Source: Natrialba asiatica DSM 12278 (GTDB taxonomy: Archaea; Halobacteriota; Halobacteria; Halobacteriales; Natrialbaceae). From it: a DNA stretch of 59,989 nucleotides. The stretch is taken from positions 1 through 59,989 of the forward strand of contig NZ_AOIO01000014.1 of NCBI RefSeq assembly GCF_000337555.1, read 5' to 3'. The position numbers and the translations under genes are program-made. Below the pieces are notes generated by a model. It was not told the DNA's origin and did no database searches. It saw only the letters and a program-made list of their open reading frames with translations. How positions within the stretch are numbered: the first letter of the stretch is position 1; every line of letters starts with the position of its first letter. Below are positions 2,584-59,989 of the stretch, in pieces.

Positions 2584-3681
2584 TTAGCCCGGAGCCGGAA
2601 TCCCGCCGAAGACGAGCAGCGCGACGATCCAGTAGGCGCCATAAAGGCCGACGAGCGTGTAGCCGTGCCACCGCCGGAGTCGCCCGGTCGAGACGAAATA
2701 CGCGGCAAGTCCGGTCATCGCTATCACCGCCGGGAGGTGAAAGACGATCACGGCGCGCGGGATCACCACGTCGCCGACGAACATGATGACGCCGACGTTC
2801 GCCGTCACGGAGAAGATTACGCTCCCGACGATGTGACCGATCCCGATCTCCGGAATGCCCCGTCGGACCGGCTCGATCGTCAACAGAAGGTTCTCGAACG
2901 TCAATACCAGCGTCAGGACGGTCGCACCGAACACCGTCTCCTCGATCCCCCACGCCTCGACGATCACTTCCGAACCCGTCTCGAGCAGGATCGCCCCTGC
3001 GACGATACCGACGAGCGAGACGATCGCCAGTCCGAGCCAGAACAGCCCCTCGTACGCCCGGTCGGCGACGTATCGATCCTCCGGGATTTCCTCCAGGACG
3101 GTCCTGATATTGATATCCGAAATCTTGAGTTCGTCTATGGCAACGCCACCGTCCGCTTCGATGCGCTCCGCGATCTCCGAGTCCCGAAAGACCGGCACGT
3201 CGCGCTGGAACTCTCGGTACACGATATACCCGAAGCAGACGATGAAGATGCCGACAAGCGCCACTCCGTGAACGACGGCCAGCGTCTCCACGAACAGGAA
3301 CGGGACCAGTACGAGCGGCGACACGGCGAGCAACAGCAGATAATCCCGCGGAATCTCGGCCGGGAACGGTCGATAGATCGCCGCACCGGCGAGCGTAATC
3401 CCCGTAATCGCTAGCGCAGTTCCGAGCGCCGTTCCGAGCGCCACCTGCTCGAGTTCTCCCGCACCGAACACCAGCGCGATCGCCGTGTCGTCGAACTCGA
3501 TGCCCGTAAAGACGATTGCCAGTGCGAAAATCGAGACGCCCAAGCCGAGCGCTGCGCGCGTGAGATAGCTGATGAGCTTTTCGACGCTATACGTCAGTAC
3601 GACGGCCCCCAGAAGTAGTACCACGTACGCCATCCACGCCCCCTGCGACTCGATGATCTCTTCGAGCACGGCCTCGATCAT
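2584..3681 (-). CDS. sodium/calcium exchanger-like membrane protein (second of a tandem pair)
   Basis: This is a 365-residue paralogue of the neighbouring exchanger-like protein, with the same plan: about five helices, a hydrophilic middle (about residues 155-205), then five more. The second alpha repeat reads FGATVLTLVLTFENLLLTIEP followed by PEIGIGHIVGSVIF, close in pattern to the neighbour. The first repeat carries GAGELEQVALGTALG. The acidic residues expected to bind cation are present but the GTSLPE core is not. A TATA-like AGCTATATGC at about 3705-3714 suits transcription from close to the ATG. Together the two genes probably make one transport function of unknown ion. Confidence 0.8.
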   Translation of the reverse strand: MIEAVLEEIIESQGAWMAYVVLLLGAVVLTYSVEKLISYLTRAALGLGVSIFALAIVFTGIEFDDTAIALVFGAGELEQVALGTALGTALAITGITLAGAAIYRPFPAEIPRDYLLLLAVSPLVLVPFLFVETLAVVHGVALVGIFIVCFGYIVYREFQRDVPVFRDSEIAERIEADGGVAIDELKISDINIRTVLEEIPEDRYVADRAYEGLFWLGLAIVSLVGIVAGAILLETGSEVIVEAWGIEETVFGATVLTLVLTFENLLLTIEPVRRGIPEIGIGHIVGSVIFSVTANVGVIMFVGDVVIPRAVIVFHLPAVIAMTGLAAYFVSTGRLRRWHGYTLVGLYGAYWIVALLVFGGIPAPG

Positions 3682-7801: not shown

Positions 7802-7882
7802 CGCCAGGACAGGGATTTGAACCCTGAATCCCAAAGGGAACACGCTTTCCAGGCGTGCGCCTTACCGTTCGGCCATCCTGGC
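7802..7882 (-). tRNA. tRNA-Ser (anticodon GGA)
   Basis: The minus strand folds as a class II tRNA. The acceptor arm is GCCAGGA/TCCTGGC, with discriminator G at 7802. It has a D arm (GCCGAACGGTAAGGC), an anticodon stem CACGC/GCGTG around loop CTGGAAA (anticodon GGA, reading UCC and UCU), a variable arm TTCCCTTTGGGATT, and a T arm CAGGG TTCAAAT CCCTG. No intron is visible. CCA is not encoded. Confidence 0.97.
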
Positions 7883-50578: not shown

Positions 50579-51688
50579 ATGGCGTACTCGCTCCCGTCGC
50601 CGACTCGGTCCGACCTCGAGTTCTCGACCAGCGAACTCTCGGGTGCGCTAGGTGATTCGGTTACCGTTCTGCCGCTGCTGGTCGCCCTCGCCGCAACGAC
50701 GACCGTCTCGCTGCCCCACGTGCTCGTCGGGTTCGGCGTCTTCCAGATCGTCTGGGGGCTGTACTACGGCTTGCCGCTCTCCGTCGAGCCGATGAAAGCG
50801 CTGATCGGACTCGCGATCGTCGGGTCGCTTTCCTACGCCGAACTCGCGGCGGCCGGGCTGCTCGCCGGCGTCGTCCTGCTCGGCGTCGGTTCGCTCGGCT
50901 TCGTCGGCCGCCTCCAGCGCGTCGTCGGCGAACCCGTGATCCGCGGCGTCCAACTCGCCGTCGCCCTGCTCCTGTTCGAGGCCGCCGTCGACCTCTCGGT
51001 CGGCGCGCCCGGCGTGGCCGCCGCCGGCCTCGCCGTCGTCGGCGCGCTCGCCCTCGCGGGCTACCGGCAGTCGAGCGTCCTCGTCGTCCTCGCGCTCGGC
51101 GGCGTCGCCGCGGTCCTCGCCGCCGGCGTTCCGACGCCCCGCGTTCCCGCAGCCGAACTCTTCCCCGCCGGTCCGCCGACGCTCTCCGCCGCGGCGATCG
51201 AGGGTACCGTCGCCCAACTCGGGATGACGGTCGGCAATGCAGCTATCGCGACCGCGCTACTCTGTGGCGACCTCTACGACCGGGACATCTCCGCCGACAG
51301 GCTCTCACAGAGTATGGGCGTCACCTGTCTCGCGGCGATCCCGTTCGGCGGCGTTCCGATGTGTCACGGCAGCGGCGGCCTCGCCGGCAAGTACGCCTTC
51401 GGCGCGCGAACCGCCGGCGCGAACGTCCTGCTCGGCCTGGGATACGTCGCCCTCGCCCTCGTCGCGACCGGCGCGCTGCTGGCCGCGTTCCCGGTCGCCC
51501 TGCTCGGCGTCTTGCTCGTCGTCGTCGCGATCGAACTCGGCCGCGCGGCGTTCGACCCGATCTCCGCCGCGGACACCCGTGCACTCTGCCTCGTCGTCGG
51601 CGTCGGGATCGTCGGCCTCGCGGCGAACGTCGGCGTCGCGTTCGTCCTCGGTGCCGTCGCGTTCTGGCTGTTGTCGCGTTACGCGTGA
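50579..51688 (+). CDS. MOT1-like molybdate/sulfate permease
   Basis: This 369-residue protein has about ten to twelve membrane helices. The motifs GVFQIVWGLYYGLPLSVEPM and GGVPMCHGSGGLAGKYAFGA match the MOT1 group, a branch related to SulP sulfate carriers that imports molybdate. It lacks a C-terminal STAS domain, which also fits MOT1. Molybdate is needed for the molybdopterin enzymes of haloarchaea. Its TGA stop is immediately followed by an 81-bp palindromic element. No mo-cofactor genes are adjacent. Confidence 0.85.
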   Translation: MAYSLPSPTRSDLEFSTSELSGALGDSVTVLPLLVALAATTTVSLPHVLVGFGVFQIVWGLYYGLPLSVEPMKALIGLAIVGSLSYAELAAAGLLAGVVLLGVGSLGFVGRLQRVVGEPVIRGVQLAVALLLFEAAVDLSVGAPGVAAAGLAVVGALALAGYRQSSVLVVLALGGVAAVLAAGVPTPRVPAAELFPAGPPTLSAAAIEGTVAQLGMTVGNAAIATALLCGDLYDRDISADRLSQSMGVTCLAAIPFGGVPMCHGSGGLAGKYAFGARTAGANVLLGLGYVALALVATGALLAAFPVALLGVLLVVVAIELGRAAFDPISAADTRALCLVVGVGIVGLAANVGVAFVLGAVAFWLLSRYA

Positions 51689-51768
51689 TACGGTCTGCTG
51701 TAACGATTTACCGGCGCAACCGCAGGACGGGCGCGGTTGCGACGGAAATGACTTACAGCAGTCCGTAT
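51688..51768 (+). repeat. 81-bp palindromic element, copy 1
   Basis: Terminal inverted repeats ATACGGTCTGCTGTAA (51688-51703) and TTACAGCAGTCCGTAT (51753-51768) match with one mismatch. Inside, CGCAACCGC and GCGGTTGCG form a second stem. The element starts on the last base of the permease stop codon TGA. A second copy of the same length and orientation relative to its upstream gene follows uvrA (59361-59441). It has no coding capacity. Confidence 0.85.
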
Positions 51769-51846
51769 GAATCGTCCCCAAACGCGGCGCGAAACCGGGC
51801 GCGAAAACCCGGGCGACTTTTCTCCCGATAGGACAAACCACCGCCG

Positions 51847-59258: not shown

Positions 59259-59360
59259 CGTAAGTATCGACATTCGACGTTCTTCATCCGTCTTTGTAGT
59301 CGACCTCGGTAATCGTTCGGATTTCGCGGCGGTGCACGAGACGGCGTAGAGCGCGGCATC

Positions 59361-59441
59361 AGACGGACTGCTAGCAGTCAGTGCCGGCACAGCTGCGCCC
59401 CGTCCTGGGTAGCGCCGGGAAATCGGTACAGCAGACCGTCT
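59361..59441 (-). repeat. 81-bp palindromic element, copy 2
   Basis: Terminal inverted repeats AGACGGACTGCT (59361-59372) and AGCAGACCGTCT (59430-59441) match with one mismatch. Read from uvrA, the first 30 bases differ from copy 1 at three positions. The element begins on the last base of the uvrA stop codon TGA. The length is again exactly 81 bp. It has no coding capacity. Confidence 0.85.
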
Positions 59442-59989
59442 CAGTCGTCATCCATCGGTGCCGAAACCGGCTCGACGCGCTCGCCGCGCGGTCCGTCGAG
59501 TTCAACGTCGGGCAACAGGTCGCGCAGGTAGTGTCCGGTGTGGGAGTCATCGAGTCGGGCCACGTCCTCGGGGGTGCCCGTGGCGACGACGTTGCCGCCG
59601 TCTTCACCGCCCTCGGGGCCGAGGTCGATGATGTGATCGGCGTTTTTCACGAGGTCGAGTTCGTGTTCGATGACGGCGACGGTGTTGCCGTTGTCGGTCA
59701 GCCGGTGGAGCACGTCGACGAGTTTGCGCTCGTCGGCCGAGTGCAGGCCGGTCGTCGGCTCGTCGAGCAGGTACAGCGTCTCCCCGGAATCCTTCTTGCC
59801 GAGTTCTTCCGCGAGCTTGATTCGCTGGGCCTCCCCGCCCGAGAGCGTCGTCGAGGGTTGGCCGAGTTTCATGTAATCAAGCCCGACGTCCTGCAGCAAT
59901 TTGAGGCGGCGGCGGATCTGGCTCGAGGACTCGAAGAACTCGTAGGCCTCCTCGACGCTCATGTCGAGCACGTCGGAGATGGTCTTGCC
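59441..59989 (-). CDS. uvrA: excinuclease ABC subunit A, C-terminal part (gene runs off the window)
   Basis: UvrA is the damage-recognising ATPase of nucleotide excision repair. Only the last 182 codons are visible; the rest lies to the right of the window. The second ABC ATPase is clear: [20 protein letters not shown] signature, [13 protein letters not shown] Walker B and D-loop, and [20 protein letters not shown] with the switch His. The tail ends [13 protein letters not shown]. Its stop codon directly joins the 81-bp palindromic element. The identification is secure despite truncation at the window edge. Confidence 0.97.

Follow-up and report, generated by a model that had tools for sequence, protein, structure and literature searches.

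The window, by which is meant the whole stretch of 59,989 nucleotides analyzed here, is contig G000:C14 of a 49-contig draft genome of 4.40 Mb. It holds two copies of a short inverted-repeat element, each abutting the stop codon of a transporter gene. The relevant features, in window coordinates, are:

50579..51688, + strand: molybdate transporter gene, MFS superfamily (PF16983), host gene of copy 1
51686..51688, + strand: left target-site duplication of copy 1, TGA in the sequence, which is the stop codon of the upstream gene
51689..51767, + strand: element copy 1, 79 bp, with terminal inverted repeats TACGGTCTGCTGTAA / TTACAGCAGTCCGTA, inner stem CCGGCGCAACCGC and core AGGACGGGCG
51768..51770, + strand: right target-site duplication of copy 1, TGA in the sequence
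59359..59361, - strand: second target-site duplication of copy 2, TGA in the sequence
59362..59440, - strand: element copy 2, 79 bp, inner stem decayed
59441..59443, - strand: target-site duplication of copy 2, TGA, which is the stop codon of the gene at 59441-59989
59441..59989, - strand: 3' part of an ABC transporter ATPase gene (PF00005), host gene of copy 2, running off the window

The preliminary description of this DNA had recorded two sequences of exactly 81 bp. Both exist, but the element proper is 79 bp, and the figure of 81 counts one base of each flanking repeat. The terminal inverted repeats, inner stem and AGGACGGG core that it listed as common to the two are indeed present in both, and each copy, read in its own orientation, has TGA on either side. 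Rfam matches the window at a single place, a tRNA gene at 7802-7882 (- strand).

These two copies belong to a family without an earlier name. When one of them was used as a blastn query, about 40 other places in the same genome were matched (down to E of about 1e-5), and a sequence-only profile made from 39 of these places found about 65 full-length copies in the 4.4 Mb as a whole. The suggestion that the two sequences are part of a dispersed family with further copies in the genome is thus borne out, and relatives contain more. The element is 76-81 bp long as a rule, is a near-palindrome with no coding capacity, and carries the terminal inverted repeats KACGGTCTGCTGT...ACAGCAGTCCGTM at its two ends. 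The exact end pattern TSAKACGGWCTGCTGT gave 60 matches in one relative, versus none for the reversed control. The 4.5-Mb draft genome G018 is a very active carrier, with 200 exact end matches (controls 0) and many identical elements. At E<=1e-8 the element was detected in 58 of 293 genomes of the order, of which 48 belong to the same family and 10 are scattered over three other families; within the same family it occurs in most genera tested, at 1 to at least 100 copies per genome. Plasmids of Natrinema, Natronorubrum, Natribaculum, Halomontanus and Natrialba also carry it, as do single plasmids of Haloarcula and Halomicrobium and a Halorubrum plasmid that was found by an end search and then read. 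Phage records gave no match to the element, and the one match on a viral contig is a single end without a partner. No earlier description of the family was found in Rfam or in the literature searched, subscription journals being mostly outside that search.

The flanks of the copies indicate how the family spread. Direct 3-bp repeats, TGA..TGA or TCA..TCA, surround the copies; the TSA pair is perfect in 30 copies of the window's own genome and in 74 of 96 copies from relatives (TGA/TGA or TCA/TCA). These triplets are not a mere extension of the stem, because an extended near-palindrome would give TGA..TCA, and the repeats are direct. Rarer triplets are duplicated as well, namely TCG..TCG in loci L119 and L055 and TAA..TAA at the tpiA stop codon of a Natrinema plasmid (L160). 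Genome G004 contains three letter-identical elements (L169, L170, L171) at unrelated sites, two flanked by TGA and one by TCA, and G018 contains identical or near-identical elements (L164-L167) within unrelated flanks, again with differing repeats. The earlier inference that the two window copies are not a recent duplication holds for those two, but identical recent copies are present in relatives.

Empty sites were sought by joining the flanks of eight G004 insertions and searching seven Natrialba genomes with them. Six of the eight flank pairs match the window's own genome as one uninterrupted piece, so that the site is empty there; one of the eight is empty in G005, and the other seven are filled in G005, with the flanks split by about 80 bp. 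The junctions have a single TGA where the site is empty and TGA-element-TGA where it is filled (L170 versus L222; L177 versus L252 and L253). The empty allele of L175/L250 reads TAA; the junction has diverged at three sites. Copies therefore moved after closely related species separated. Because of the direct duplications, the identical copies at different places and the empty sites, the element is recognized as recently moved, non-autonomous and of MITE type. A non-autonomous mobile element was among the possibilities raised beforehand, and the target-site duplications proposed as a check on it are present (3 bp, TSA, with one copy at empty sites). Pairs of elements also occur side by side, with no more than one or a few triplets between them (L198:1111-1269, L102:1419-1578, L194:1075-1232 and L167:1133-1297); these represent a second insertion at or beside the duplicated TSA of the first element.

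The insertions are concentrated at the ends of genes. Among 98 non-redundant insertions with clean duplications, with genes called by a simple codon-usage caller, 62 (about 63%) lie exactly on a TGA stop codon. The expectation is 32 if any TSA of the same intergenic gap is chosen uniformly; before the filter for clean duplications, the window's own genome alone gave 36 of 59 on stops versus 15.6 expected. The insertions away from genes reveal what is being chosen. When oriented as TGA (the T being position 0), they have G, A and C at -3 to -1 and, among insertions not on stops, G/A, T/A and C at +3 to +5. In a strict set of 14 insertions with no open frame of >=25 codons before the TGA, C reaches 0.79 at -1 and 0.57 at +5, versus 0.28 and 0.24 in the background of other intergenic TSA sites. 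The target is thus a symmetric motif close to GAC-TSA-GTC. Stop codons that have no element resemble its left half: element-free TGA stops have G, A and C at frequencies of 0.52, 0.42 and 0.47 at -3 to -1, versus.26,.21 and.28 at other intergenic TSA sites. Since gene ends resemble the target motif in this way, more than half of the stop-codon excess is explained; with sites weighted by the motif, the expected number becomes 50-52. A residue is left (62 versus 50-52, p about 1e-5): the matrix may be imperfect, insertions elsewhere may have been purged, or there may be a genuine additional preference. The gene itself is unharmed, because duplication of the TSA regenerates its TGA stop; duplication of a stop codon by MITEs was not reported in the literature searched (subscription journals again mostly outside). 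There is also a mild orientation bias at stop codons: of 64 insertions there, 42 have the CGATTT arm toward the gene; away from stops the two orientations are even (19 versus 21).

The palindrome is inherited and then decays. Copy 1 of the window folds far better than its shuffles (z -8.0 as DNA and -6.1 as RNA), and an idealized young form reaches z -8.8 as DNA; young copies are near-perfect hairpins. Copy 2, which has lost its inner stem, folds no better than shuffled sequence (DNA z -1.1). RNAalifold returned no consensus structure for the family. Across 110 copies, pair-keeping double changes number 128 versus 113 +/- 7 in shuffles, and paired cells make up 68.3% versus 65.8 +/- 0.5%, with this small excess concentrated in the inner stem. 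Copy 1 and its ortholog L182 differ by substitutions that have no compensating partners. The loss of stems in old copies and the uncompensated differences between orthologs argue for simple inheritance and decay, and post-insertion selection on the structure is at most weak. The element had been called structure-conserved, with compensatory changes suggested as the check; the slight pair-keeping excess in the inner stem agrees with this, but the missing RNAalifold consensus, the stem loss in older copies and the uncompensated ortholog substitutions do not.

One change to the hairpin recurs. About 39 of roughly 140 classifiable copies, or about a quarter, have the core CCCGTCCT instead of AGGACGGG, with no accompanying reversal of the asymmetric arms, CGATTT at the left and GTCA at the right. 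When about fifteen orthologous pairs were compared, the core proved to be inverted between species in four. The clearest case is a copy in the window's own genome (L010:1072-1151) compared with L097 (G005:C28:24193-24270): the site and the arms are the same, and the two share a private core, GACGATCC, that is absent from all other copies fetched and is read in opposite directions. Judged from these sequences, the hairpin core inverts in place, as opposed to arriving by a second insertion. Template switching during replication, or cleavage and rejoining of a cruciform, is probably responsible; an error in draft-genome assembly is possible but unlikely for a 79-bp element. The inversion is a new observation of the present analysis. 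Other variant forms were also seen. An element of ~70 bp on a Natronorubrum bangense plasmid (L158, about 2999-3068) shares the outer arms and has a TCA duplication, yet differs in its inner hairpin (GATCACC...GGTGATC), so that the inner stem is replaceable. A variant of about 137 bp (L259:215-352; G018:C28:436412-436554) is lengthened by additional sequence lying between its arms, and its TGA duplication is a matching one. An 8-kb Natrinema limicola locus (L118) contains three copies in 6 kb, and in one of the three the ends are changed (TGATACGGACGACTGT..ACAACAGACCGTATGA).

The reading that we favor, with a probability of about 0.86, is that the family is a non-autonomous, MITE-type transposable element, a near-complete palindrome of 79-80 bp that is moved in trans and reaches gene ends through its target motif. 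The term is used for anatomy and behavior (terminal inverted repeats, a fixed 3-bp duplication, short non-coding sequence, many copies and recent mobility); descent from a named insertion sequence is outside the claim. DDE transposases make staggered target cuts, and in the proposed mechanism a transposase acting in trans would recognize the ends KACGGWCTGCTGT and cut the target symmetrically with a 3-nt stagger. Gene ends would be favored for their likeness to the motif, since a final codon followed by TGA reads RNC-TGA, often GAC-TGA. Insertion duplicates the 3-bp TSA target and so restores a TGA stop, and insertions at stop codons, being harmless, would escape purging. After insertion the copy would decay neutrally, with its core at times inverted between the inner arms.

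The mobilizing enzyme was sought through the ends of candidate parent elements and through transposase models. Neither the six DDE_Tnp_1 loci of the window's own genome nor 30 such loci of relatives have the ends of the element; they have other ends, for example GAGGGTGTCATAGAA or GGCTCTGTTGAA, and several have 8-bp duplications. No parent transposon with the ends of the element was found among the sampled loci. About 40 stretches around seemingly unpaired ends proved to contain ordinary elements of ~80 bp and a few lone or degraded ends, and plasmid records, including single-end searches of them, gave element-sized matches only. A lone exact end at C11:25737 was rejected as an element; it lies inside a transporter gene and is a chance match. 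At L209:2276 (G004:C42:101573) a lone perfect end, TGATACGGACTGCTGTAA, is followed by unrelated sequence with no matching partner, and may be a degraded copy or the end of something else. IS5-family groups (IS427/IS1031-like) make 3-bp TNA duplications, a trait present here as TGA, TCA and one TAA. PF13340 and PF13586, which we take to be the Pfam models of the IS5-type groups with such duplications, were searched for in carrier genomes: PF13340 was found in none of 16 and PF13586 in none of 8 above the cut-off, with one sub-threshold match in G024. Descent from the IS5 family is not supported by the carriers searched. A more specific version of the favored reading is possible, though we consider it doubtful: the driver would be, in place of a parent insertion sequence, a resident and perhaps domesticated host transposase, of a type new for a 3-bp TSA duplication, together with evolved gene-end targeting and recurrent core inversion.

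Other explanations place the specificity elsewhere. An enzyme that reads the ends of translation or transcription directly, beyond any DNA motif, would account for the residual excess of stop-codon insertions, but the insertions away from stops have the same motif, so that the motif itself accounts for most of the excess. The residue, moreover, is calculated with crude gene calling and a matrix derived from a small number of sites, and purging of harmful downstream insertions would also raise it; such direct recognition is unlikely. Less likely still is a REPIN-like single-stranded hairpin, moved by an HUH transposase (Y1, RAYT or IS200/IS605) to a position beside a TGA, with the second TGA being part of the element. 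The near-complete palindrome, the high copy number, the location 3' of genes and the lack of a DDE partner among the loci searched would suit it, as would the fact that most copies read the target TGA on one strand. However, a palindromic REPIN would have inverted ends and the repeats here are direct (TGA..TGA); they also co-vary with the target, as in the TCG and TAA cases above, and an empty site has one copy of the triplet.

The preliminary description had also raised the possibility of an RNA 3'-end element. As a functional terminator, stabilizer or processing hairpin held by selection at gene ends, it would explain why 62 of 98 insertions sit directly on stop codons, why young copies have a strong hairpin, and why double changes that preserve pairing are weakly in excess in the inner stem. 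Yet both orientations occur and about a third of the insertions are away from gene ends, old copies such as copy 2 lose their stems, copy 1 and L182 differ without compensation, the sole Rfam match in the window is the tRNA, and the window's own genome lacks the element at six of the eight G004 sites. The position at gene 3' ends is therefore real, but since the copies occur in both orientations and are placed there by insertion, it needs no RNA function, and we regard this explanation as highly improbable. Nothing was found in favor of the further idea of a nucleoid or topoisomerase site.

The MITE-type element shares features with several known systems. Prokaryotic and archaeal MITEs are short, non-coding and intergenic, with terminal inverted repeats, a target-site duplication and many copies (PMC10969869; Haloquadratum walsbyi, PMC3119063), all of which applies here; the nearly full-length palindrome, the preference for TGA stops and the in-place core inversion set the present element apart, and a parent transposon was not found in the sampled loci. 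The small mobile repeats SMR-A (about 110 bp) and SMR-B of Haloquadratum walsbyi have inverted repeats and ends that match no known transposon, and their mobilization has been called enigmatic (PMC3119063). The present element is likewise short, haloarchaeal and bounded by inverted repeats for which no transposon match was found in the sampled loci. SMRs, however, make no target duplications and use other mobile elements as targets (PMC3119063), whereas the present element duplicates a 3-bp TSA on insertion and has gene ends as its target. PATEs, the IS605-type derivatives of Haloquadratum, are high-copy palindromes with no transposase, as is this element, but they have neither the terminal inverted repeats nor the target duplications (PMC3119063) that are found here. 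REP/REPIN sequences with RAYT transposases are high-copy extragenic palindromes (PMC2817692), again like the present family; the latter differs in that its 3-bp duplication is direct and changes with the target, and an inverted tetranucleotide foot was not seen in it.

The family illustrates how selfish DNA can fill a gene-dense genome cheaply: its motif resembles a gene end, and the 3-bp duplication restores the stop. Some culturable species contain more than 100 young copies, and sister species have empty sites, so that the choice of target is directly testable, as are effects on transcript 3' ends and the in-place inversion of the hairpin. The mobilizing enzyme is now a concrete question, in parallel with that of the small mobile repeats of Haloquadratum.
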